64,000 nt of DNA from Iodidimonas sp. SYSU 1G8 (GTDB lineage: Bacteria > Pseudomonadota > Alphaproteobacteria > SMXS01), in the NCBI RefSeq assembly GCF_039655775.1, contig NZ_JBBYXJ010000002.1, positions 1,054,001-1,118,000 on the forward strand, written 5' to 3'. The position numbers and the translations under genes were made by a program. Each line of letters begins with the position of its first letter. Position 1 is the stretch's first letter. The notes beneath the pieces were generated by a model. It saw only the letters and a program-made list of their open reading frames with translations. It did no database searches and had not been told where the DNA came from. This document shows, one piece after another, positions 2,372-15,253 of this stretch.

Positions 2372-2412
2372 CTGTCGCTGGATAAGCCAAAATTGTCGCG
2401 GCATATCAAGAT
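2372..2412 (+). promoter_or_regulatory. Candidate AraC-type operator, site A (Rieske operon)
   Basis: CTGTCG at 2372-2377 and TTGTCG at 2393-2398 are direct half-sites 21 bp apart; the second is followed after 7 bases by TCAAGAT (2406-2412). The same arrangement recurs at 8605-8645 and 13511-13551 and, more degenerate, at 13445-13486. Direct repeats about 21 bp apart are the usual target of AraC/XylS proteins. The element ends 64 bp before the Rieske start codon. No other feature was seen between the tRNA and this site. Confidence 0.6.
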
Positions 2413-2475
2413 CGCGGCCCCTGTTGGTCTCTAGTTTGTCCCTGATGTGATGACCGGCCTGACTGGAGAACGCTC

Positions 2476-3840
2476 ATGAGCGACGGCGCCGCGCGCTATG
2501 CCGCCGATGAAGTCCGCGATGATTTCGTTCCCAAGGAGGCCTATTTCGCTAGGGACTTCGCCGAGCTCGAGGCTGACCGGCTGTGGCCGTTCGTCTGGCA
2601 GGTCGCGTGCAGGCTGGAGGAGATTCCCGAGGTCGGCGACTATGTCACCTACGACATCGTCGACGACTCCATCATCGTCATCCGCACGGCCCAGGACCGG
2701 ATCAGGGCCTATCACAACGTCTGCCCGCACCGGGCCCGGCGCTTGCTGTCGGGATGCGGCAACACGCGGCAGATCGTGTGTCCGTTTCACGGTTGGCGTT
2801 ACGGGCTGGACGGCCGCAACATCAAGGTGATCGACAAGGCGGACTGGGGAAACTGCCTCGATCCGGACGATATCCGGCTGTCCGAGGTGCGCTGCGATCA
2901 TTGGGGCGGCTTCGTCTTCATCAACATGGATGCCCGCGCTGAACCGCTGATGGATTTTCTCGCGCCCATGACCGGGTATTGCGAGAAGTTCGAGTTCGAG
3001 AAACTGCGGTATCGCTGGTACAAGACCGTGGTGATGCCGGCTAACTGGAAGACCGTGCTCGGTTTCTTCAACGAGTTCTATCACGTGCAGCAGGCCCATC
3101 CCCAGCTGCTGGAATTCACCAACGATTATTCCCGCAGCGGCGAGTTCGGCCGGCACGCTCAGATGTGGTTCGAGGCCGACGGCGCCATGCCGTTCAGCCG
3201 CTCGCCGCGTCTGCCGCCGCGTCCCGAGCCGCCGATGAAGGACCACATCGTCGCCTTCGCCGAGCACTACAATGTCGCGCTCAAGGCGATGCTGTCCGAG
3301 CGCAACTATGCCGCCGCCATGCGCGTGCGCGATGAAGTGCCGCCCGAGACGCCGCCGCTCGACACCCTGGCCAAATGGGTCGAGTTCCAGGTCGAGGCCG
3401 CCATGGAGGACGGTGCCGGCTGGCCGGCCGACCTGACGCCCGAATACATCGAGCGCTCGGGTCTGGACTGGCACGTGTTTCCCAACACCATCTTCCTGCA
3501 TGGCCTGATCGACGGCGTGTTGTGGTATCGGATGCGGCCCAACGGGCGCGACCCGGAAAGCTGCATCTTCGACGTCTGGTCGCTGGTGCGTTATGCGCCG
3601 GGCAAGGAGCCGACGCTCGAGCGCCAGTTCTTCACCGACTGGCGCGACGGTGACTGGGGGCTGATCTACGAACAGGACTTCGCCAACATTCCCGAGGTCC
3701 AGAAAGGCTATCACTCGCGCGGCTTCAAGGGCGAGCGGACCAATCCGGTACAGGAGCGCGCGATCTCCAATTTTCACCGGGTGCTGCGGCGATTCATGAA
3801 GGATCCCCACGACAACCCACCGATCACCCGGCAACGCTGA
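2476..3840 (+). CDS. Rieske non-heme iron ring-hydroxylating oxygenase, alpha subunit
   Basis: Oxygenase component that would insert oxygen into an aromatic or alicyclic substrate, fed electrons by a reductase/ferredoxin not encoded here. The Rieske [2Fe-2S] ligands are C83-P-H85 and C102-P-F-H105 followed by the usual GW. The catalytic domain shows N190-W-K and E200-x-Y-H203-x4-H208-P, the mononuclear iron site in its Glu-containing version. Length (454 aa) is normal for an alpha subunit; no beta subunit is adjacent, though SnoaL-like proteins of the same fold class as beta subunits occur in the window. The start is supported by GGAGA about 7 bases upstream. It begins a two-gene operon with the crotonase (3 bp between stop and start) behind candidate operator A. 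The substrate cannot be read from sequence. Confidence 0.92.
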   Translation: MSDGAARYAADEVRDDFVPKEAYFARDFAELEADRLWPFVWQVACRLEEIPEVGDYVTYDIVDDSIIVIRTAQDRIRAYHNVCPHRARRLLSGCGNTRQIVCPFHGWRYGLDGRNIKVIDKADWGNCLDPDDIRLSEVRCDHWGGFVFINMDARAEPLMDFLAPMTGYCEKFEFEKLRYRWYKTVVMPANWKTVLGFFNEFYHVQQAHPQLLEFTNDYSRSGEFGRHAQMWFEADGAMPFSRSPRLPPRPEPPMKDHIVAFAEHYNVALKAMLSERNYAAAMRVRDEVPPETPPLDTLAKWVEFQVEAAMEDGAGWPADLTPEYIERSGLDWHVFPNTIFLHGLIDGVLWYRMRPNGRDPESCIFDVWSLVRYAPGKEPTLERQFFTDWRDGDWGLIYEQDFANIPEVQKGYHSRGFKGERTNPVQERAISNFHRVLRRFMKDPHDNPPITRQR

Positions 3841-3843
3841 GCC

Positions 3844-4632
3844 ATGTATGGCGACTATCGGCATATGGTCGCGAGCCGGCGCGGGCGAATTCTTACCCTG
3901 ACGCTGGACAACCCGCCGCTCAACGCGGTGAACCGGGCGCTGCATGACGAGTTATCCACTGTTTTCCAGGACGTCGCGCGCGACGACGGCTGCGACGTCG
4001 TCGTCCTGACCGGCGCGGGCAAGGCGTTCTCGGCCGGCGCGGACCTGGAAGAGATGAAGCGCGCCACAGAGGACGCGGCGCTGCGCTCGGCGCTGATGTC
4101 CCGCGCGCCCCACATCGTCCACGCCATGCTGTCGCTCGACAAGCCGGTGATCGCTCGTCTCAACGGCCATGCCATGGGACTCGGCGCCACGCTGGCGTTG
4201 CTGTGCGACGTGGTGATCGCCGCCGACACCGCGCGCATCGCCGATCCGCATGTGGGCATAGGTCTGTCGGCCGGCGACGGCGGCGCGCTGATCTGGCCGC
4301 GCTTGATCGGTTATGCCCGCGCCCGACATCACCTGCTGACCGGTGAGCCGCTGACCGCGACCGAGGCCGCCGCCATCGGGCTGATCCAAAAGGCGGTCCC
4401 ACCCGAGTCGCTGGACGAGGCGGTGAACGCCTATGCGGACCGGCTCTCGGGCGGCGCGATCCTGGCGATCCGCGCCACCAAGCGGTCGATCAACATGGCG
4501 CTGGGCCGAGACGCCGTCGCCAGCGCCGAGGCCCATATCGGCCTCGAGGCATTGACCATGGCGTCGAACGACCACCGCGAGGCGGTGATGGCCTTCCTGG
4601 AGAAACGCGCGCCGGTCTTCACCAGGACTTAA
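3844..4632 (+). CDS. Enoyl-CoA hydratase/isomerase (crotonase) family protein
   Basis: A 262-aa crotonase-fold protein acting on an acyl-CoA thioester. The oxyanion-hole segments are visible (GAGKAFSAGADL, residues 57-68, and HAMGLGATLALLCD, 109-122). The two catalytic glutamates of true hydratases are not: T116 or a neighbour occupies the first position and H136 (in DPHVG) the second. Instead it has GLSAGDGG (140-147), seen in a crotonase subfamily of uncertain chemistry. It may therefore be an isomerase, hydrolase or other crotonase rather than a standard hydratase. It starts 3 bp after the Rieske gene and belongs to the same transcript. Its stop codon shares the palindrome TTAA with the stop of the converging dehydrogenase gene. 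Confidence 0.88.
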   Translation: MYGDYRHMVASRRGRILTLTLDNPPLNAVNRALHDELSTVFQDVARDDGCDVVVLTGAGKAFSAGADLEEMKRATEDAALRSALMSRAPHIVHAMLSLDKPVIARLNGHAMGLGATLALLCDVVIAADTARIADPHVGIGLSAGDGGALIWPRLIGYARARHHLLTGEPLTATEAAAIGLIQKAVPPESLDEAVNAYADRLSGGAILAIRATKRSINMALGRDAVASAEAHIGLEALTMASNDHREAVMAFLEKRAPVFTRT

Positions 4633-5678
4633 CCGTTCATATACCGCTCCAGGTGAAACTCCACGTCGCCGAAACGGCGCTCGGAAACGATGGCCCGGCG
4701 CAGATAATGCCCGACGCGGTATTCGGTGGTGAAGCCGATGGCGCCGTGCAGGTGCACCGCCATGCCGGTGACGCGCTTGGCCGTCTCGAAGGTATTGACC
4801 CAGCAGGCCGAGACCGCCTTCTGGCGCTCCACCCTCCCGCGGCTGAACGCCGGAATCGCCCGCAGCACGCTGGAGCGGACGCTGTCGGCATCGATGAACA
4901 GGTCGGCCACGCTGTGTTGCAGCGCCTGGAAGCTGGCGAGCTTCTGGCCGAACTGGGTGCGGGTCTTCAGGTATTCGGCGGTCATCTCGATGGCGCTGTC
5001 CATGCCGCCCAGCATGTCGGCGCACAGGCAAAGCCGCGCCTCGTCGAGGGCGTCTTCCACGGCATCCAGTGCCTTGGCCGACAGCAGCCGGTCGGCGGGG
5101 ATCGTCAGGTCCAATCGGAAATCGGCGCAGTCCCTGCCGTCGACCGTCCTGTACGTCCGGCAATCGATACCCGGTTGCTCACGATCCACGAGGAAAAGGC
5201 CCACGCCGCCCTCCAGTGACGCCGTGACCAGCAGGCCGTCGGCGGCCGCGCCGTCCATCACCAGCACCTTGGTGCCCGACAGGCGGTAGCCAGCGCCGAC
5301 GCGCGCTGCGTGGGTGCGGGGCGTCAGCTGGTAGCGGATGCCCGGTTCGTACAGTGCCGGCACGAGGCGCCGTGTGCCGGCGATCATCTCCTGCAGCAGC
5401 GCCCCCCGCGCGTCGCTTGCGGCCAGTCGATCGACCAGCCTTGTCGCCAGCACGGCGCCGTCGATGAACGGACCGGGCGCCAGCGCCCGTCCCATTTCCT
5501 CGGTCAGGATCGCCAGCTCCGCCATGCCGCCGCCCAGACCGCCCGCATCCTCTGGCGCGGCGATGCCCAGCCATCCCATGTCGGCATAGCCCTGCCAGGA
5601 GGCGCCGCCGGCCTGTGCCAGATACCGCCGCGCGCTGTCGCGCAGCATGGACTGTTCGCTGTTCAGGGTGAAATCCAA
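4629..5678 (-). CDS. Acyl-CoA dehydrogenase, short subunit (probable partner of the next gene)
   Basis: FAD-dependent acyl-CoA dehydrogenase-like protein of 349 aa. The frame is open much further upstream, but homology begins at DFTLNSEQSMLRDSARRYL and a TTG codon there is preceded by GGAGG at 6-bp spacing, so TTG at 5678 is chosen. The N-terminal helical domain, a central beta domain (degenerate compared with the larger gene) and the C-terminal segment with TEYLKTRTQFGQ-like and HGAIGFTTEY stretches are recognisable. The usual C-terminal catalytic IYEGT segment is absent. Small, degenerate subunits next to a ~390-aa dehydrogenase are the pattern of alpha2-beta2 dehydrogenases known from steroid and bile-acid side-chain degradation. 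It follows the larger subunit by 20 bp. Confidence 0.88.
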   Translation of the reverse strand: MDFTLNSEQSMLRDSARRYLAQAGGASWQGYADMGWLGIAAPEDAGGLGGGMAELAILTEEMGRALAPGPFIDGAVLATRLVDRLAASDARGALLQEMIAGTRRLVPALYEPGIRYQLTPRTHAARVGAGYRLSGTKVLVMDGAAADGLLVTASLEGGVGLFLVDREQPGIDCRTYRTVDGRDCADFRLDLTIPADRLLSAKALDAVEDALDEARLCLCADMLGGMDSAIEMTAEYLKTRTQFGQKLASFQALQHSVADLFIDADSVRSSVLRAIPAFSRGRVERQKAVSACWVNTFETAKRVTGMAVHLHGAIGFTTEYRVGHYLRRAIVSERRFGDVEFHLERYMNG

Positions 5679-5698
5679 CCGCGCCTCCGACTTCCGCC

Positions 5699-6883
5699 TC
5701 AGCGGTACAGCGTGTTCCAGATGATGGTGCGCTGGACCTCGTCGGACCCGCCGAAGATGGTCGCCGCCCACCAGTACAGATATTGCGTCGAACGGCCTGC
5801 CGCGGCCGCCGGCGCGAGGGCTGGCAGCGGCGTGCTGTCTTCCGGCCGAAACGCGGGCGCCACCTGGGGCCCCAGGATCGCCAGCTCCAGATCCGCCGCG
5901 TGCAGCAGGCACTGGGCGCCGCGCACCGCCAGGGCCGACGCCGCCGCGCCCAGCGCCGGTCCGGGCTGTCCCGCCAGCACCCGCAATACCGACCATTCCA
6001 GCGCTTCCACGTCGATGGCCAGCCGGGCGTGGCGGCGTCGGTATTCGGCCGCCTGCGCCTCCGGCAGCCCATTCGACCGCTCGGCGTCGATCAGCGCCGG
6101 GATCCGCGCCATATAGCGGCACAGCATGCCGGCATAGGCGTTGTGCGTTCGCTCGTGCTCCAGCAGGAACTTGGCCTGCGTCCAGCCGCTGTTGGGCTCG
6201 CCGATCAGATTGCCCGCCGGCACCCGCACATTGTCGAGGAACACCTCGTTGACATGGTGGTCACTGTCGAGGGTCTCGATGCCGCGCACCGTGACGCCCG
6301 GCGCGTCCATCGGCACGATGATCATCGACAACCCCGCCTGCGGCTTCACCGCCGGATCGGTGCGCGCCAGACAGACCATGAAGTCCGCCATGTGGGCGTC
6401 GGTGGTCCATATCTTGTGGCCATCGATCACCCAGTCTCCGCCATCGCGCACCGCGCGTGTCCGCAGGCTGGCCAGGTCGGACCCGGCCTCCGGCTCGGAG
6501 AAGCCCTGGCAGAACCAATACTCGCCGCTGAGAATCGGCTGCAGAAAACGCTCACGCAGCGCCGGCGATCCAAACCTGCACAGCACCGGCCCGACCATGG
6601 ACAGGGCGATCAGGCAGATCTCCGGCACATTGGCGAGGCCGCACTCCCGCTCGAAGATGTAGCGTTGCACTGGCGACCAGCCGGTACCACCGAACTCGAC
6701 CGGCCAGCCCGGTGCGGTCCAGCCGCGGCGGTATAGCGCCGTTTGCCAGGCCGTGACCGTCGCGCGGTCGTTATGGAAGCCCATGGCCTCGCGCCGCGCC
6801 AGCGTGGGCGGCAGATTGGCGGCGATGAAATCGCGCACCTCCTGTCGGAAGGCCTCGTCCTCGGGCGAGAAGTCCAGCTTCAT
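5699..6883 (-). CDS. Acyl-CoA dehydrogenase, larger subunit
   Basis: A 394-aa acyl-CoA dehydrogenase that would oxidise an acyl-CoA to the 2-enoyl-CoA with FAD. The N-terminal domain starts MKLDFSPEDEAFRQEVRDF; the flavin-contact segment WFCQGFSEPEAGSDLASLRT and WVIDGHKIWTTDAH are clear, and the C terminus carries IFGGSDEVQRTII. The start ATG overlaps the stop of the upstream ligase gene by 4 bp (ATGA), indicating translational coupling. With the shorter dehydrogenase downstream it probably forms a mixed complex. The candidate catalytic base lies in the helix LLEHERTHNA, the isovaleryl-CoA-dehydrogenase-like position, but this is inferred. Confidence 0.92.
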   Translation of the reverse strand: MKLDFSPEDEAFRQEVRDFIAANLPPTLARREAMGFHNDRATVTAWQTALYRRGWTAPGWPVEFGGTGWSPVQRYIFERECGLANVPEICLIALSMVGPVLCRFGSPALRERFLQPILSGEYWFCQGFSEPEAGSDLASLRTRAVRDGGDWVIDGHKIWTTDAHMADFMVCLARTDPAVKPQAGLSMIIVPMDAPGVTVRGIETLDSDHHVNEVFLDNVRVPAGNLIGEPNSGWTQAKFLLEHERTHNAYAGMLCRYMARIPALIDAERSNGLPEAQAAEYRRRHARLAIDVEALEWSVLRVLAGQPGPALGAAASALAVRGAQCLLHAADLELAILGPQVAPAFRPEDSTPLPALAPAAAAGRSTQYLYWWAATIFGGSDEVQRTIIWNTLYR

Positions 6884-8541
6884 GCCATCGCTTTCCGTTC
6901 GCGGGAATGAGCCGCGGCCATGTCGCGCAGTCTGTCCTTGCGGACCTTGCCGGACGCGGTCTTCGGCAGCTCGGCCACCAGGATCACGCATTCCGGAGTC
7001 TTCTGCCTGGCCAGCCCCGCGTCGCGCACCAACGCTGCCACAAAGGCGAGGTCGACGGACGCACCCGCCACCGGTACGACAAAAGCGCAGATCGCCTCGC
7101 CGGTGCGGGCGCTGGGCATGGAGACGACGGCCACCTCGGTGATCGCCGGGTCGCGGAACAGCACGTCCTCGATCTCCCGGGCGCTGATGTTCTCGCCGGC
7201 CCGGATGATCAGGTCCTTCTTGCGGCCGGTACACACCAGATGGTCGCCCTCGACCAGCCGGCCCAAATCGCCCATTCGGAAAAACCCGTCCGCGTCATAC
7301 GCGTCCTGATTGTCTTCCGGGCGGGCATAGCCCAGCGCCATGCTGGGCTCGCGCGAGAGGATCTCACCTTCCTCGCCGTCTCCCGAGGGCGCGCCGGATA
7401 CCGGATCGACGATGCGCACCTCGCAACGATAAAGCTGCCCGTCGGTCTCTGCCGCCAGCGCAAGATTTTCCCGCGACGACGGCCCTCGCGTCATGGTCGG
7501 CGCCTCCGTCGCGCCGAACACCCGGAACGGGATGCAGTTGGGGAAGCAGGCGGCTGCCTCGCGGATCAGGCTGGGCGGCACGGACGCGCCGCCGCACAGA
7601 AAATAGCGCAGGCTGTCCAGCGTCTCGCCGCGCTCGCGTGCTACCGCCACGAGGTCCTGCATGAACGGCGTCGCGCCCAGCATGAACGAGCAGCCGTGAC
7701 GGCGGATCGCGTCGAACGCCTCGGCGGCGTTCCAGACGTCGGTCATCACCACCGGCACGTCGCAGGTCCACGGCGCGTTGAGCGCCCACAGATAGCCGCT
7801 GATATGGGTAAGTGGAGACGGCGAGAATGTCCGATCCTCGGGGCCCAGACCCATGGCGGCCGTCATCTTCACCGAATCCGCGTTCAGCGTATTGTGGGAG
7901 TGCAGCACGCCTTTCGGCCGCCCGGTCGTCCCCGAGGTGTACATCAGCAGCTTGACCGCGTCAGGATCGACCGTGCGCGTCTCGGCGAGCGGTGCGCCGC
8001 TCAGCAGGTCGTCGAAGCACAGGAAGCCGTCGGCCCGGTCGCGCACCGTGACCAGCAGCGGCGCCGCGTCGAACGACGGTGCAAGCCGCGCCATCATCGC
8101 CGCATGGTCGAAATTGCGGAACAGGCGCGGCACGAACACCACGCGGGTGCGTGCCTCGTTCAGCATGTAGCCGACTTCGGCGTCCCGGTAGATCGGCACG
8201 ATCGGATTGACCACAACGCCGGTCATCGCCGCGGCCAGGTTGATTACCGCCGCTTCCCACCAGTTGGGCAGCTGGAACGAGATCACCGCGCCCGGCGCGA
8301 GGCCGATAGCGTCGAACCACCCGGCCAGCCGCAGGGCGCGATCGTGGAGCTGGCCGCGGGTCAGCGCCAGGCCGTTGTCGATCATCTGGATCCGGTCCGG
8401 CGCCGCATGCACCAGCGCGGCGGCATCGGCGGCGATGGTGCGGTTCAGCCAGTCGCCCGACCGCACCCATTGCTCGGCCAGCGCGCCGTTCCAGCGCACG
8501 GTCCACCCGCCAGCATCACGCCGCGATGTCTGCTCGTTCAC
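6880..8541 (-). CDS. AMP-forming acyl-CoA synthetase (fatty/alicyclic/aromatic acid-CoA ligase)
   Basis: ANL-superfamily ligase of 553 aa that activates a carboxylic acid through an acyl-AMP to its CoA ester. The P-loop-like motif YTSGTTGRPKG lies at residues 201-211, the hinge/A8 motif GRKKDLIIRAGENIS near residue 440, and the catalytic Lys in TASGKVRKD near the C terminus. The sequence resembles cyclohexanecarboxylate-type ligases, but the acid cannot be named. GTG at 8541 is chosen, with GGGGAG upstream. It is the first gene of the ligase-dehydrogenase-dehydrogenase operon and is preceded by candidate operator B, whose end is 64 bp from this start codon. Confidence 0.9.
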   Translation of the reverse strand: MNEQTSRRDAGGWTVRWNGALAEQWVRSGDWLNRTIAADAAALVHAAPDRIQMIDNGLALTRGQLHDRALRLAGWFDAIGLAPGAVISFQLPNWWEAAVINLAAAMTGVVVNPIVPIYRDAEVGYMLNEARTRVVFVPRLFRNFDHAAMMARLAPSFDAAPLLVTVRDRADGFLCFDDLLSGAPLAETRTVDPDAVKLLMYTSGTTGRPKGVLHSHNTLNADSVKMTAAMGLGPEDRTFSPSPLTHISGYLWALNAPWTCDVPVVMTDVWNAAEAFDAIRRHGCSFMLGATPFMQDLVAVARERGETLDSLRYFLCGGASVPPSLIREAAACFPNCIPFRVFGATEAPTMTRGPSSRENLALAAETDGQLYRCEVRIVDPVSGAPSGDGEEGEILSREPSMALGYARPEDNQDAYDADGFFRMGDLGRLVEGDHLVCTGRKKDLIIRAGENISAREIEDVLFRDPAITEVAVVSMPSARTGEAICAFVVPVAGASVDLAFVAALVRDAGLARQKTPECVILVAELPKTASGKVRKDRLRDMAAAHSRERKAMA

Positions 8542-8604
8542 CCGCCTGCGCTCCCCGCAAATGCAGTCTCCGGTACCCTGATCCTATGGAGGCTGTCCGG
8601 CAAT

Positions 8605-8645
8605 ATCTTGATATTTGACGACAATCCCCGGATATTCGGCGGCAG
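8605..8645 (-). promoter_or_regulatory. Candidate AraC-type operator, site B (ligase operon / araC promoter)
   Basis: On the minus strand, CTGCCG (8645-8640) and TTGTCG (8624-8619) are direct half-sites 21 bp apart, followed after 7 bases by TCAAGAT (8611-8605). The core matches site A exactly in both conserved blocks and ends 64 bp before the ligase start, as in site A. It also lies between the ligase and the divergent AraC-type gene, so it could serve autoregulation. Confidence 0.6.
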
Positions 8646-8731
8646 GGGTGCGCTCGAGCGTTCATTTTCGCGCTCGCGACGTGGTTCTCAAAAAGGATGC
8701 CCGGAATCGGGACCAGCGGGGAGCTATACCA

Positions 8732-9805
8732 ATGCCTACTGTCGCCGTTGATGATCGAGGCCCTGATGTCCATGCCGCGGATGCCAATTCCAGGGCTGCC
8801 CTGGTCAGGATCGAATCGCTGAGGCTCTATCCCGAGGTGGTGCGCCGCTTGGGCGGCAACCCGGAGGTGATCCTGGCGCGCGAGCCGCTGGACATCGCGT
8901 TGCTCGACCAGCCCGGCACGATGATTCCCTACCGCAAGATGATCCGGCTGCTGCACCGCACGGCCATCGAGCTGGACCGTCCGGATTTCGGGCTGGTATT
9001 CGCGTCCCGCCAGGGCGGTGCCGCGGTTCTGGGACCGCTCGAGGTGGCCATGGCCAACGCCGCGACCCTGGGCGACGCCTACCGCTATTGCGCCCAGCAC
9101 CTGAATGCCTACAGCTCGGTTGGCGACCTGAACATCGATATGGATTCCGACGGGCGCGTTGCCATCAGCTGGGGCATTCATCTCGATCGGCTGCTGCACC
9201 ATGAACAGGCCATCGAGCACGGTATCGCGCTGATGCACCACGCCATCCTGACCATCTCCGGCGGGGCGGTGCGCGCGAAGGAAATCTGGTTCGCACACGA
9301 CCACATCTCGCCGCCCGAGCGCTACGCCGGCTATTTCGGCGCGCGGGTGGAGATGAACGCGCCGTTCAACGCCGTCTTCCTCAACCGCAGCGACCTGGCC
9401 GTGCCGATCGCCAACCGCAGCCAGCAGCTCTACGAGATGGCGACCTCGTTCATCGATACCCAGTTTCCCGATGCGGCAAAACCGCTGTCAGCCAAGGTTC
9501 GGTCCATTGCCACCCGGCTGCTGCCCCATGGCGGCTGCCTGCACCTGGAAGTGGCGTCGGCCCTTGGCATGCACCCGCGCACGCTGCAGCGCCGGCTGCG
9601 GGACGAGGGCGTGAACTTCGAGGAGATCAAGGACGAGGTCCGCCGCGATGCCGCGCTGCGCTATCTGGGCCAGCCGAGCATCCCGCTGACCCGCGTCGCC
9701 GCGATGCTCGGCTACAGCGAGCCGTCGGTGCTGACGCGCAGCTGCTACCGCTGGTTCGGCAGCTCGCCGCGCAAGTACCGCAAGGCCATCGCCGGCACCG
9801 AGTAA
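8732..9805 (+). CDS. AraC-family transcriptional regulator (OruR-like)
   Basis: A 357-aa regulator: the N-terminal ~230 residues match the Arabinose_bd-like ligand domain of OruR-type proteins (VLGPLEVAMANAATLGDAYRYCAQHL), and the last ~90 residues form the double helix-turn-helix (LHLEVASALGMHPRTLQRRLRDEGVNF and IPLTRVAAMLGYSEPSVLTRSCYRWFG). ATG 8732 is preferred over an in-frame TTG at 8615 because the 39 extra residues would fall inside candidate operator B, and GGGGAG lies upstream of 8732. It is divergent from the ligase operon and central in the catabolic region; it is the obvious candidate to bind the four shared upstream elements. It converges on the P450 gene with 4 bp between stops. 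Confidence 0.92.
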   Translation: MPTVAVDDRGPDVHAADANSRAALVRIESLRLYPEVVRRLGGNPEVILAREPLDIALLDQPGTMIPYRKMIRLLHRTAIELDRPDFGLVFASRQGGAAVLGPLEVAMANAATLGDAYRYCAQHLNAYSSVGDLNIDMDSDGRVAISWGIHLDRLLHHEQAIEHGIALMHHAILTISGGAVRAKEIWFAHDHISPPERYAGYFGARVEMNAPFNAVFLNRSDLAVPIANRSQQLYEMATSFIDTQFPDAAKPLSAKVRSIATRLLPHGGCLHLEVASALGMHPRTLQRRLRDEGVNFEEIKDEVRRDAALRYLGQPSIPLTRVAAMLGYSEPSVLTRSCYRWFGSSPRKYRKAIAGTE

Positions 9806-9809
9806 GCCG

Positions 9810-11042
9810 TCACAGCTTGTCGAAGGCGATTTCCAGGCGGCTCGGCCCATAGGCGAAGAAGTGGGTCTGCCAGCCGATGCCATCCTCGCCGCGCGCCAGC
9901 CGCAGATTGCCCATGCGCTTCAGGATGCCCGCGATGGCGACCCGCAGCTCGCCGCGCGCCAGCTGGTTGCCGACGCAGAAATGCGCGCCGGTGCCGAACG
10001 CGAAATGCTTGCGGGCGTTGCCCCGGTTGACGTCGAGCGTGTCTGGATCGGGAAACACTTCCGGGTCGCGGTTGCCGGCGCCGTAGCGCAGCACGATGAT
10101 CGCGCCTTCCGGGATCGGCGTGCCGCCGATTTCGGTGGCGCGCGTCGCCCGCCGCCAAAGTCCCTGCACCGGCGCGTCGAGCCTCAGCACCTCCTCGACG
10201 AATTTCGTGATCAGCGACGGGTCGGCGCGCAATTGCTGCTCCAGCCCGGGCGTGGTGACGATGCGGTACATGGCGCTGGCCAGCGCGCCCACCGTGGTGT
10301 CGCTGCCCGCCGGCAGCATTTGCTCGACGATCTGGATGATCTCCTCGATCGACAGCCGCCTGCCATCGACCTCGGCGTGGACCAGGTCGCTGAGGATGCA
10401 TTCCCGCGGTGCCGCCCGGTATTCCTCGGCGCGGGCGACGATGAAGTGCTGCAACTCGCAGATGGTATGCGTCAGCTCGATCTGCCGCGCCTCGCCATTG
10501 TCCGGGTCGTTCTCCTGCACGATGGCATCGGCCCAACGCTTGAAGTCGGCATAGCGCTCGCGCGGCAGGCCGATCTGGTCCGACAATACGTGGTTGGGAA
10601 TCTTCACCGCGAGGTTGAAATAGAATTCCACCTCGCCGTCATCGATGATCTCGTCGATCATCTCATCGACCACGCCTTCCAGATATTCCTCCATCCTGCG
10701 CACGCGGGTGATGGTGAATACCTTGTCGACCAGGGCGCGGTGGATGGTGTGGATCGGCGGGTCGGACGCCACCAGCGCGGTTACCGGCATATAGCCCTTC
10801 TCGCGATAGATGGCGTCGATCTTCGCCTGATAGGGCGCGTTCTTCACCATCAGCTGGCCGGTGACGTTGGAGAAGGTCGCCGGATCGCTGGCCGCCTTTC
10901 GGATCTCGTCATAACCGGTGACGATGTAGAAGCCGCTGCGCGGGTCCAGGTAGACCGGCCCCGCCTTGCGCACCTCGGCATAGGCGGCGAACGGGCAGCG
11001 CTGGATTTCCGGATCGCTGAAGCTGATCGGTGCCGATGACAT
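9810..11042 (-). CDS. Cytochrome P450
   Basis: Soluble bacterial P450 of 410 aa, a heme-thiolate monooxygenase that would hydroxylate the pathway substrate. Visible marks are the heme-binding FGTGAHFCVG with C356, the oxygen-activating I-helix AGSDTT (245-250) and ExxR (E284-R287). ATG 11042 is chosen over 11060 because GGGAG is positioned about 8 bases upstream. No ferredoxin or reductase is adjacent. It lies 23 bp downstream of the TonB receptor gene on the same strand, so receptor and P450 are almost certainly co-transcribed from the promoter with candidate operator D, linking uptake and first oxidation of the same compound. Confidence 0.95.
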   Translation of the reverse strand: MSSAPISFSDPEIQRCPFAAYAEVRKAGPVYLDPRSGFYIVTGYDEIRKAASDPATFSNVTGQLMVKNAPYQAKIDAIYREKGYMPVTALVASDPPIHTIHRALVDKVFTITRVRRMEEYLEGVVDEMIDEIIDDGEVEFYFNLAVKIPNHVLSDQIGLPRERYADFKRWADAIVQENDPDNGEARQIELTHTICELQHFIVARAEEYRAAPRECILSDLVHAEVDGRRLSIEEIIQIVEQMLPAGSDTTVGALASAMYRIVTTPGLEQQLRADPSLITKFVEEVLRLDAPVQGLWRRATRATEIGGTPIPEGAIIVLRYGAGNRDPEVFPDPDTLDVNRGNARKHFAFGTGAHFCVGNQLARGELRVAIAGILKRMGNLRLARGEDGIGWQTHFFAYGPSRLEIAFDKL

Positions 11043-11065
11043 CCCCGTCTCCCTGCCCATGTCAG

Positions 11066-13333
11066 CTAGAAGTCATAATCTATCGTGAGGCCGATTTCGC
11101 GCGGTTCTTCATAGGACACGCGCGCCGCGCCCGCCGAGATGGTCGTCGAGCTGTAGGACTTGGTGTTGGTCAGGTTTCGTCCCCACAGCGAGAAGCGCCA
11201 ATTGCTGCCATCGGGCTGGTAGCTGATCTCGGCCGCCACCCGCGCATAGCCGCCCTGGACCAGCACGCCGAATGGATCGTAGGGCAGGTATTTGCTGGTG
11301 TAGTAGAGGCTGGGCGCGACGGTCAGTTCGCCGCCGGGCACGCTGGCCACGTAGTTGAGCGACAGCACGGCGCTGATCTTCGGCGCGCGCATCAGCCGGT
11401 CGCCGCTGACGTCACCGATAATGGCGCCGAGGCCGCCAAGCCCGATTGGCGGGCCGAAGCCGGCCGCGTTGGGGAAGTCGGTGAAGTCGGCTTTCGGCAT
11501 CCAGGTCAGGCCCGCGCGGACCGACAGCCCTTCGGTCAACTGCGCCGTGCCATCGAACTCCAGGCCGTAGATCCGCGCCGAGGCGGCGTTGGTCGGAATG
11601 ATCGCGGTGCCGGTGAACGACTGAATCTGCAGGTTCTTGTAGTCGTAATAGAAGCCCGCCAGGTTCAGGCTGTAATGGGCCTGGGCCGTCTTGAAGCCGA
11701 CCTCGTAGGCGGTGACCGTTTCCGGATTCACCGCTGGGCCCACCGTCAGGATTGGCAGGATGCCGCTCTTGAAACCCTTGGAGAACGTGGCATAGACGTT
11801 GGTCCGGTCGGATATCTCATAACGGATGCCGACGCGCGGCGTGACGCTGTCCCAGTGCGGGTCGGCGAATTCGAAATACGGCGCGCCGAAAAAGGTGACG
11901 AAGCCGGTCTTGCGTTCGTAGCTGTAGCGCACGCCCGCCGTCAGCGTCAGCCCGTCGACCACCTCGTAATCGCCCTGGGCGAAGATGCCGTAGGCCTTGG
12001 TCTTGACCTTCGTGGTAGCAATGAGCAGCGGCGGATAGACCACCTGCGGCGCGCCAGGCAGCGCGCCATTGGTGAAATCGTTGATCCATGCCGGGATCTT
12101 GCCGTTGCTGATGAACACGTTACCGCCGACCAGGAACGTCATCCGTCCCATGCGCTCCGACGTGAACAGGAAGTCCTGGAAGAAATTGTCGTTCGGCTGT
12201 TCGTCCTTGAACGCCAGGCAGGCGAAGGTGAACGGCGCGGCCGCCAGGCACTGCGGCGAATACGCGGCATCGACGTCGACCCGCTCCTGGTAGCGGCTGA
12301 GCGTATAGGCGCTGGTCGAGGTGAACGTGCCGATGCCCGTGTCGATGTCGATCTTCAGGCTGCCGCCATAGTTCTGGATTTTGGTGAGCGGATCGGGCGC
12401 GTCATACGCGTATTGCCACGGCCGCGTGCCGAAGATCGCGTCCGGGTACAGCGACGCCGCGGTCAGTCCATCGGACGGCAGGCCGACGCTGCCGTGGTCC
12501 GTCGAGCGCTGCATGTAATAGGCCGTCGCCAGGATCGTCACCCGGTCGCTGGGCGTGAACAGCAGCTTGCCGCGCAGCGTGTACGAGCGCAGCCAGTCCA
12601 TCCGGTCGCTGTCGTAATTGTTACCCACCGCCGGCAGTACGCCGGGCACGATGTTGCGCGAATAGCCGTCCACGTTGCGGTAGGCGAACGAGAAGCTGGC
12701 CGCCACCTTGTCGGCGACCAGCGGCCCGCTGATGAAGCCTTTGACGCCCAGGTCGTAGGATGACCGGCTCGTCCCCGCGCCGTCATATAGGCCGGCGGTG
12801 GCGCTGACGCTGCCCGTGGTCTCGAAACTGGGTGAGCGGGTGAAGATCTGAATCGCGCCGCCGGTCGCGTTGCGCCCGAACAGCGTGCCCTGCGGTCCCT
12901 TCGACACCTCGATGCGATCGATGTCCGGCAGGTCGATGGACGCGCCCGCCTGGGTACCTTCATAGACGCCGTCGATATAGAGCGCGATCGGGTTGTCCGA
13001 ACCCGGGCCGGTGACCAGCGTGGTGATACCGCGCAGGGCCGGCTGGACGAAATTGCCCTGTGCCTGCAGGGTCAGGCCCGGCGTGACCAGCGCCAGGTCG
13101 CGCAGGTTGTCGACGCCCGCCGCCTCGAGCTGCGCGCCGGTCTGCACGGTGATCGAGATCGGTACGTCCTCCTGCCGCTCGGCACGGCGCTGCGCCGTCA
13201 CCGTGACCTCGCCCACGGCCGAAGGCGCCGCCGCCGCAACGGGTGTGCCCGGTGGCGGCGCATCCTGCGCCCAGGCCGGTGCTGCGGCCGACGCGCACAG
13301 CATGGCGACCCCCGACAGGTAAAGATGTCTCAT
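11066..13333 (-). CDS. TonB-dependent outer-membrane receptor of the AraC-linked cluster
   Basis: Receptor of about 755 aa. It has a signal peptide (MRHLYLSGVAML...PAWA), a TonB-box-like EVTVTAQRR, a plug with VPISITVQTG, ALRGITT and EVSKGPQGTLFGRNATGGAI, and a C-terminal barrel ending in IGLTIDYDF. This plug style is typical of catabolic receptors in TonB-rich alphaproteobacteria that take up hydrophobic organics. The start is uncertain: in-frame ATGs occur at 13357, 13348 and 13333; 13333 gives the cleanest signal peptide, with GGGAAG upstream. It heads a receptor-P450 operon and is preceded by candidate operator D. The ligand is inferred to be the substrate of this cluster. Confidence 0.93.
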   Translation of the reverse strand: MRHLYLSGVAMLCASAAAPAWAQDAPPPGTPVAAAAPSAVGEVTVTAQRRAERQEDVPISITVQTGAQLEAAGVDNLRDLALVTPGLTLQAQGNFVQPALRGITTLVTGPGSDNPIALYIDGVYEGTQAGASIDLPDIDRIEVSKGPQGTLFGRNATGGAIQIFTRSPSFETTGSVSATAGLYDGAGTSRSSYDLGVKGFISGPLVADKVAASFSFAYRNVDGYSRNIVPGVLPAVGNNYDSDRMDWLRSYTLRGKLLFTPSDRVTILATAYYMQRSTDHGSVGLPSDGLTAASLYPDAIFGTRPWQYAYDAPDPLTKIQNYGGSLKIDIDTGIGTFTSTSAYTLSRYQERVDVDAAYSPQCLAAAPFTFACLAFKDEQPNDNFFQDFLFTSERMGRMTFLVGGNVFISNGKIPAWINDFTNGALPGAPQVVYPPLLIATTKVKTKAYGIFAQGDYEVVDGLTLTAGVRYSYERKTGFVTFFGAPYFEFADPHWDSVTPRVGIRYEISDRTNVYATFSKGFKSGILPILTVGPAVNPETVTAYEVGFKTAQAHYSLNLAGFYYDYKNLQIQSFTGTAIIPTNAASARIYGLEFDGTAQLTEGLSVRAGLTWMPKADFTDFPNAAGFGPPIGLGGLGAIIGDVSGDRLMRAPKISAVLSLNYVASVPGGELTVAPSLYYTSKYLPYDPFGVLVQGGYARVAAEISYQPDGSNWRFSLWGRNLTNTKSYSSTTISAGAARVSYEEPREIGLTIDYDF

Positions 13334-13444
13334 TGTCACGCTTCCCATGGCACCCATCCCCTCGTTTCCCCGCAACGCCGCTTCTGTTCCCCGAAGCCGC
13401 GATCCCTGGCGTCAGGCAAATAATGGGTGCCGGGTTCGGCGCGC

Positions 13445-13486
13445 GTCTTTATCTTTGACGACAATTATCCCGGCGGGAGGCGGCGG
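13445..13486 (-). promoter_or_regulatory. Candidate AraC-type operator, site D (receptor-P450 operon), degenerate
   Basis: On the minus strand TTGTCG (13464-13459) is followed after 7 bases by TAAAGAC (13451-13445), a 5/7 match to the TCAAGAT block of the other sites. The upstream half-site is weak (CCGCCG at 13486-13481, 22 bp spacing). The 7 spacer bases begin TCAAA, as at site B. Confidence 0.45.
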
Positions 13487-13510
13487 CTGGCGCGCCGAAG
13501 GCGGCGGATT

Positions 13511-13551
13511 CTGTCGTTCCGAGCACCTGTTTTGTCGCCGCCGGTCAAGAT
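13511..13551 (+). promoter_or_regulatory. Candidate AraC-type operator, site C (SnoaL-like gene)
   Basis: CTGTCG (13511-13516) and TTGTCG (13532-13537) are spaced 21 bp, followed after 7 bases by TCAAGAT (13545-13551), matching site A in all three blocks. It ends 55 bp before the start codon of the SnoaL-like gene. Together with site D on the other strand, it sits in the 272-bp divergent interval between the receptor and that gene. Confidence 0.6.
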
Positions 13552-13605
13552 GCCGGCGTGACCGCCGTGATAGGCACGAACCAATGTCCGGGGAGGGACG
13601 CGCCG

Positions 13606-14133
13606 ATGCAGGACACGCTCAACGAGGTCATCGCCCATCACTGCATTCGCCAGGTCCTGGAGCGGTATTGCCGCGGCATCGACCGGCTCGACGCGGCCCT
13701 GATCGACAGCGTCTACTGGGAGGATGCCACCGACAATCACGGCATCTATGTCGGTCCCGGCAAGGATTTCTCGGCGTTCATCATCTCAATGCTGCGAGAC
13801 GCGTTCACAGCCACCATGCATTTCATCGGCCAGTCCAACATCGCTGTCACCGGCGACCGCGCCGCGGCCGAAACCTATTTCGTCGCCTACCACACCAGAA
13901 ACGAGGACGCCGGCGCGGTCGTTGACGTCGCCGCTGGCCGCTACGCTGACATGTTCGAGCGACGCGGCGACGAATGGCGCATCCGTGACCGCACCGTGGT
14001 GATGGATTGGGTGGAAACCCGCCACGGCCTGGACCGCGCGGCGCTGGCCCTGGGCAGCTTCACCAACGGGACGCGGGACACGGCCGATCTCAGCTACCAC
14101 GCCTATGGCTGGGCGCTGAAACAGGATCGGTAA
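13606..14133 (+). CDS. SnoaL-like / NTF2-fold protein
   Basis: A 175-aa protein of the SnoaL_4 type (RYCRGIDRLDAALIDSVYWEDATDNHG near residues 23-46), with the cone-shaped alpha+beta NTF2 fold. Members are small cyclases, isomerases, dehydratases or oxygenase beta-like partners; the motif does not define the reaction. ATG 13606 is preceded by GGGGAGGG; the in-frame GTG at 13558 lacks such a site. The gene is alone on its strand between the receptor-P450 operon and the second crotonase and has its own candidate operator C, so it probably works in the same pathway. A paralogue (20229-20771) accompanies the second Rieske oxygenase. Confidence 0.85.
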   Translation: MQDTLNEVIAHHCIRQVLERYCRGIDRLDAALIDSVYWEDATDNHGIYVGPGKDFSAFIISMLRDAFTATMHFIGQSNIAVTGDRAAAETYFVAYHTRNEDAGAVVDVAAGRYADMFERRGDEWRIRDRTVVMDWVETRHGLDRAALALGSFTNGTRDTADLSYHAYGWALKQDR

Positions 14134-14182: not shown

Positions 14183-15253
14183 TCAGGCGTGCGCCTCGAT
14201 GCCGTCGATGAGGCCCCAGGCCAAGGCTTCCATGGCGGTCAGCGGCCTTCCTGACAGCCCTAACCAAGCGGTGCGGTGCCGGCCGATCCGCCGCCGGATG
14301 GTGACGGTGCCGCCGGCACCGGGGATCAGGCCCATGTGCACTTCGGGCAGATAGAAGCGCGCGTCGGGCGCGGCGACCACCGAACGTGCCGCCGCCGGAA
14401 TCTCGATGCCGGCGCCGAAGCACGCGCCGTGAATGTGGGCGGACAGAGCGTCTCCGCAATCCTGCACCATGCCGGCGACCGACTGTGCCAGACGAATGCC
14501 CTGCTCGGATGGCCGGTCCGTGGCGCTACCGAACTCGGCGAGGTCGCCGCCGCTGCAGAATGACGGGCCTTTGCCGTCCAGCGTGATACGTTCGATGGCC
14601 GGATCGGCCGCCGCATTGCGCAACGCCTCGGCCAGCTGATGCCCCATGGCGTCGTTGAGCGCATTGTGGAGATGCGGCCGGTTCAGGGTAATGCGCAGGC
14701 TGTGTTTGCGGCGCGACAGTGTCACCAGCGTGTCGACGTTCGGGGCGCGCGTCCTGGGCGGATTGGCCTCGCGCCAGCGGCGAAATTCGGCGCCCGTCAG
14801 AAGCGCCGAGTACCCGACGGATTCGAGAACGAGGCCGTCGGTGAATGGCAGGCGTTCGCTCAACCGCAAAACCCTCGCGAAGACCGAGGCGGCAAGCGGA
14901 TTGGCGAGGGCCCGCCGATGCAGTCTTTCTGCCTCGAGCGGTAGTGCCTCGGGCACCACGCTTACCCATTCGCGGTTGGGGCAGGGATGGCTGGTCATCA
15001 GCACGTCGAAAATCCCGCCCAGTCCTTCCGGTACCTCGCCGTCTTGGTCGATGCCGATCAGCACGCCCGATCGGGGCGCGGCGAGTCGTGTTTCGGCAAT
15101 CTCAGGCCGCCACGACCCATCGAGTTTGACAACGGTAACCGTTGTAGCGTCGGCGGCCGAGAGATGCTCGCCCGTGTGAGGATCGACCAGCAAGTCGAGA
15201 AGCTCGATCAGCGATGGAAACCCGGTAACGGTCGGTGGCTCGCGATCGCTCAC
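14183..15253 (-). CDS. Crotonase-family enoyl-CoA hydratase with N-terminal extension
   Basis: A 356-aa protein. The C-terminal ~190 residues are a crotonase domain: GKGPSFCSGGDL (oxyanion hole), HGACFGAGIEIPAAAR and YLPEVHMGLIPGAGGT, which retain both glutamates expected of a hydratase. The first ~155 residues (from GFPSLIELLDLLVDPHTGEHL) are not a crotonase core and are not recognised. They may be a diverged second module or a CoA/partner-binding extension. The start is GTG at 15253; no convincing ribosome binding site is visible, so the N terminus is tentative. It is convergent with the SnoaL-like gene and has no visible copy of the operator motif, so membership in the catabolic regulon is only by position. 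Confidence 0.82.
   Translation of the reverse strand: MSDREPPTVTGFPSLIELLDLLVDPHTGEHLSAADATTVTVVKLDGSWRPEIAETRLAAPRSGVLIGIDQDGEVPEGLGGIFDVLMTSHPCPNREWVSVVPEALPLEAERLHRRALANPLAASVFARVLRLSERLPFTDGLVLESVGYSALLTGAEFRRWREANPPRTRAPNVDTLVTLSRRKHSLRITLNRPHLHNALNDAMGHQLAEALRNAAADPAIERITLDGKGPSFCSGGDLAEFGSATDRPSEQGIRLAQSVAGMVQDCGDALSAHIHGACFGAGIEIPAAARSVVAAPDARFYLPEVHMGLIPGAGGTVTIRRRIGRHRTAWLGLSGRPLTAMEALAWGLIDGIEAHA

Follow-up and report, generated by a model that had tools for sequence, protein, structure and literature searches.

RESULTS

A paired element at four promoters of one gene cluster

The 64,000-nucleotide stretch of Iodidimonas sp. SYSU 1G8 DNA analyzed here (referred to as the window) contains a cluster of genes on both strands, and it raises the question of whether these genes are controlled together and, if so, by which protein. 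An earlier note on this DNA had proposed that a direct-repeat element shared by four promoters, together with an AraC-type regulator, ties them into one pathway unit. We computed the presence, uniqueness, conservation, and geometry of the sites, along with their co-variation with the regulator. The genes of the cluster are the following.

2476..3840, plus strand: Rieske oxygenase alpha subunit, 454 aa
3844..4632, plus strand: enoyl-CoA hydratase/isomerase (ECH) family protein
4629..5846, minus strand: acyl-CoA dehydrogenase, PimD-like small subunit (upper limit of the frame; start codon not fixed)
5699..6886, minus strand: acyl-CoA dehydrogenase, PimC-like large subunit (upper limit of the frame)
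6880..8541, minus strand: AMP-binding acyl-CoA ligase (nearest models, cyclohexanecarboxylate-CoA ligase, matched under their cut-off)
8732..9805, plus strand: AraC-type regulator, 357 aa, with an Arabinose_bd (PF12625) sensor and an HTH_18 DNA-binding domain
9810..11060, minus strand: cytochrome P450, 416 aa
11066..13333, minus strand: TonB-dependent receptor (the frame opens at 13375; an ATG at about 13333 was judged the best start)
13606..14133, plus strand: SnoaL_4 domain protein, 175 aa

The Pfam, NCBIfam, and PDB matches of the cluster proteins do not name the pathway substrate; the predicted catabolic unit is probably one for a bulky alicyclic (organic) acid. Positions 14183-15253 of the window hold an open frame, possibly truncated or frameshifted, whose N-terminal part, about 175 aa long, has no match and whose enoyl-CoA hydratase domain comprises no more than its first two thirds.

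As the earlier note had claimed, four sites are directed at four different units, and the AraC-type gene is central among them, between site B and the P450 gene.

2372..2412, plus strand: site A, CTGTCG, 21 bp, TTGTCG-N7-TCAAGAT; directed at the Rieske-ECH unit
8605..8645, minus strand: site B, CTGCCG, 21 bp, TTGTCG-N7-TCAAGAT; directed at the ligase-dehydrogenase operon
13511..13551, plus strand: site C, CTGTCG, 21 bp, TTGTCG-N7-TCAAGAT; directed at the SnoaL-like gene
13445..13486, minus strand: site D, the variant element TTGTCGTCAAAGATAAAGAC with a weak distal half-site (22-bp step); directed at the receptor-P450 unit
2393-2412 (plus), 8605-8624 (minus), and 13532-13551 (plus): the exact core TTGTCG-N7-TCAAGAT, forming the proximal parts of A, B, and C
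13445-13464, minus strand: fourth core, with TAAAGAC, belonging to site D

The description of A, B, and C as YTGTCG pairs followed by N7-TCAAGAT is accurate except for the distal half-site of B, which reads CTGCCG. TGTCG is found in both half-sites of A and C at all loci, the distal copy in B being TGCCG, and AAGA is absent from the distal half-sites of all four sites. Site D does contain the TAAAGAC copy. It had been called degenerate, but we reject decay: all nine loci compared share the 20-bp core of D letter for letter, which makes D a conserved variant. The start codons behind A and B do begin at +64 (63 nt between), as observed before, but in relatives this distance varies, from 60 to 85 nt at A and from 63 to more than 160 nt at B. 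Because relatives do not keep it, a constant 64-bp distance was rejected as a meaningful ruler, and the agreement between A and B is a coincidence.

Occurrence of the element in the window and the genome

The genome was scanned with degenerate patterns. The exact core occurs three times in the window, compared with no occurrence in 100 dinucleotide shuffles, and three times in the complete 3.92-Mb genome, each time in an intergenic position within this 11-kb stretch. The reversed-pattern control of the exact motif gave no matches in the whole genome. When both half-sites were required (TGYCG-N16-TGTCG-N8-MAAGA), the exact genome-wide matches were A, B, and C only. Chance occurrence is rejected by the shuffles and the genome-wide counts. 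Allowing one mismatch added six matches to the core beyond the cluster sites, in or at the edges of open frames, and yielded ten to the composite element, all within long open frames; none of them lies in a clear promoter, and they were rejected as extra regulon members. Since exact matches are confined to the cluster while one-mismatch matches fall in open frames, the finding is not a codon-usage artifact, and the motif is not equally common in unrelated coding sequence, an outcome that the earlier note had named as refuting its proposal.

Conservation in relatives

Comparison of the same intervals in relatives carrying the cluster, which had been suggested as a check, showed that eight other loci, spread over three genera, have elements at their orthologous promoters: five congeners, Rhizorhabdus histidinilytica UM2, and two Sphingopyxis. 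In the five congeners the exact motif is found in the cluster only, at two or three copies per genome; one of them lacks A because of an incomplete contig, and another lacks its third copy because of a one-base change in C. A sixth congener (G003), which does not have the regulator gene, has no exact motif in its genome. R. histidinilytica UM2 and the two Sphingopyxis have the same gene order, A to D at the same promoters, and a regulator that is about 71% identical. Across relatives, the proximal TTGTCG and AAGA are kept and the spacer and flanking bases vary; the distal half-site of B is further decayed in Sphingopyxis. The TonB receptor gene is missing in three congeners (L031, L032, and L037), where D directly faces the P450 gene. 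These shared, conserved sites at four promoters support the view of one pathway unit that extends across both strands.

An extra element, B2 (TTGTCG/ATGTCG-N7-CCAAGA), lies about 106 bp ligase-ward of B in the congeners L053 and L033 and in both Sphingopyxis. It is absent from the window (8542-8604) and from L031, L032, and L037; set against L053, the window's lineage seems to have lost B2 when about 100 bp between B and the ligase gene were deleted. In the Rhizorhabdus and Sphingopyxis clusters, B is also followed by an acetoacetate-decarboxylase-like gene, and the SnoaL gene by 2-oxoacid dehydrogenase E1 alpha/beta genes (8882-9718 and 16010-18144 in L034; 8893-9810 and 16183-18146 in L035), both missing from the window's cluster. 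Directly upstream of site A, the window has a tRNA-Met gene (2161-2236); in its place, L031, L037, and L053 carry a further P450 gene that shares about 35% identity with that of the cluster. This replacement, along with the patchy distribution of the cluster, hints at horizontal transfer.

The regulator and its distant homologues

The AraC-type protein carries the PF12625 sensor at its N terminus (E = 6.6e-28; 98.5 bits against a cut-off of 27.6) and HTH_18 (PF12833) at its C terminus (E = 4.9e-17, which passes the cut-off). Its gene is the sole PF12625 gene in the genome, in a count that covered PF12625 and not other AraC sensor-domain classes. VirS belongs to another bacterial group and acts on another target operon. 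It is the closest solved relative of the regulator over the whole length (PDB 8rcx; E = 3e-48), and the two proteins share recognition helix 1 (MHPRTLQRRL). The best NCBIfam match is QhpR (NF049968), but the score of 173.1 bits is under the family cut-off of 250, so the regulator is not a QhpR; its neighborhood showed no amine dehydrogenase genes. Identity with GliR (111.1 against 570 bits, NCBIfam) or CypR (score under cut-off) was also rejected. A literature search on QhpR found nothing, and those on CypR and VirS yielded only passing mentions of them.

We also scanned the loci of distant homologues (35 to 51% identity) in sphingomonad and Caulobacter-family genomes, covering 14 to 21 kb each (5 kb for one short contig), with a position weight matrix (PWM) built from 23 sites, and compared the hits with 60 Markov-chain sequences. 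In homologues that are 42 to 51% identical, the best PWM match precedes the operon adjoining or containing araC. The match beats all 60 Markov-chain sequences in L093 to L095, L106, and L107, while the L092 site and the single L038 site are borderline, marginally above chance. Three homologues of at least 42% identity have a perfect tandem TGTCGC-N8-AA-N5-TGTCGC-N8-AA; the AA of the distal half-site is kept in L093, L106, and L107. TGTC-N8/9-CAAG is present within about 230 bp upstream of araC, oriented away from it, at 10 of 14 distant loci, and homologues of about 36% identity mostly have TGTCC or TGTCA-N7-TCAAG directly upstream of araC, again oriented away. No matching site was found in the scanned loci of L096 and L109.

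Recognition helix 1 reads PRTLQRRL in the TGTCG group (PRTMQRRL or PRTVQRHL in a few members) and LHRR, LLRR, or similar in the others. The co-variation is imperfect, because L108 pairs TGTCG with a changed helix. Even so, the presence of the motif tracks the homologues and its variants mostly change with the recognition helix, which lends indirect support to the earlier assignment of the motif to an AraC-type protein and is the strongest evidence available, short of binding, that it belongs to this regulator. A broader generalization, which we offer tentatively, is that a PF12625 AraC clade with a patchy distribution in alphaproteobacteria reads TGTC(G/C/A)-N7-TCAAG, the base after TGTC being set largely by helix 1. 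If true, PRTLQRRL would specify G, the targets of uncharacterized clade members would be predictable from protein sequence alone, and the half-site would be common to two sensor-domain classes (PF12625 and GATase-type ArgR).

Judged from these sequence comparisons, the paired tag at the four promoters is very likely read by the regulator whose gene is central in the cluster. We consider it improbable that another regulator encoded elsewhere (e.g., an AraC protein of the GATase type, like ArgR or GbdR) reads the element, leaving the local AraC protein as a bystander or as a protein with other sites. ArgR has a different sensor domain, and the genome count of regulators covers PF12625 genes only. 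The half-site fits the published ArgR box (PMC10963909); however, both the presence of the motif and its variants follow the AraC protein of the locus and the sequence of its recognition helix, and the paired exact sites are found only in the cluster of this regulator, with both missing in G003.

Promoter architecture

Alignment of the 23 sites gives a distal TGYCGC and a proximal TTGTCG...TCAAGA at a 21-bp step, with AAGA invariant in 23 of 23 proximal half-sites. In most sites a predicted TA-rich -10-like box (CTAG, ATAGG, CTAA, or ATTAT, depending on the site) follows 17 to 20 nt past TCAAGA, or at about 18 nt in the alignment, and it recurs in most distant homologues. At this distance the proximal half-site would abut or overlap the -35 region, a position that would fit class II activation. 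Alignment also suggests a promoter for the regulator gene itself, divergent from the ligase operon:

8608..8636, plus strand: predicted araC promoter TTGATA-N17-GATATT, with its -35 inside site B

Both hexamers are largely conserved in seven loci. The location of this -35 within operator B suggests autoregulation, with the regulator probably limiting its own synthesis there.

The same geometry bears on the sign of control. If the AraC protein repressed the four units until an inducer released it, the overlap of B with the predicted araC promoter would be a plausible place for repression, but at none of the four target units does the site cover the -10 or the start; in each it is placed at the -35 or upstream of it, which is the usual position of an activator, and CdhR and SphR, characterized proteins with a like geometry, activate their target operons; we therefore regard repression of the units as unlikely. 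Still less credible is the reading that an alternative sigma factor uses the conserved words as its core promoter: the near-fixed 17 to 20 nt from TCAAGAT to the TA-rich box resembles a -35 to -10 spacing, but the conserved TTGTCG and the TGTCG 21 bp upstream would stay unexplained, the exact sites are found in the cluster only, and the motif varies with the AraC homologue.

DISCUSSION

We put the probability at roughly 0.83 that the PF12625-type AraC protein is the local activator of a four-promoter regulon, binding direct repeats in a class II arrangement. From the features above we infer binding, activation rather than repression, an inducer, and control of the regulator's own gene. Two protomers would sit head-to-tail on the 21-bp direct repeat, each with one helix-turn-helix on TGTCG and the other on (C)AAGA about 10 bp further. 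The downstream protomer, at or overlapping the -35, would recruit RNA polymerase to the Rieske-ECH, ligase-dehydrogenase, SnoaL, and receptor-P450 units. The activator would probably be ligand dependent, and its inducer may be the pathway substrate or a CoA ester. The weak distal half-sites at B and at D, with its 22-bp step, are points against this activator model, as are the missing sites of L096 and L109, the changed helix of L108, and the marginal sites of L092 and L038. The model would join an oxygenase, an acyl-CoA ligase and dehydrogenases, a P450, a receptor, and a SnoaL protein on both strands into one predicted catabolic unit, and the predicted regulon now has an exact operator sequence. 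It also points to a code by which the operators of Arabinose_bd-type AraC regulators in a little-studied clade could be recognized.

By analogy, the predicted regulon would work like the ArgR, CdhR, SphR, and GliR systems, as a case of classic bacterial gene control. ArgR has a GATase-like sensor domain and responds to arginine, whereas the sensor of the window's regulator is PF12625. The Pseudomonas ArgR box consists of tandem TGTCGCN6GNAA copies separated by 5 bp, one repeat being generally less conserved (PMC10963909). The window's element resembles it in the TGTCGC half-site, the AA eight bases later, and the 21-bp period, but the ARG box has a G at position 13 where the element has (T)CAAGA. 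CdhR of P. aeruginosa uses GGTCGC half-sites with a 15-bp spacer, which resemble the sites of GbdR, SouR, and ArgR (PMC5806209); direct repeats with a 21-bp period are common to CdhR, GbdR, SouR, and the window. The features of ArgR/CdhR-type sites are found here as head-to-tail TGTCGC-like half-sites with a 21-bp period (a 22-bp step in D) and AA at positions 15-16 of the proximal half-sites. The earlier note's premise that AraC/XylS proteins bind direct repeats about 21 bp apart agrees with the period in ArgR (PMC10963909) and CdhR (PMC5806209). CdhR is described as class I and acts further upstream, whereas the window's proximal half-site is at or over the -35; for GliR, motifs upstream of and overlapping the -35 have been reported (PMC8151288). 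SphR of P. aeruginosa, which has a three-promoter regulon with two direct repeats (TGNCCSNNRNNSNCC) 6 to 8 bp apart (PMC3900636), differs in its half-site letters and in having sphingosine as inducer, and by site layout it resembles the window as a small regulon with direct repeats.
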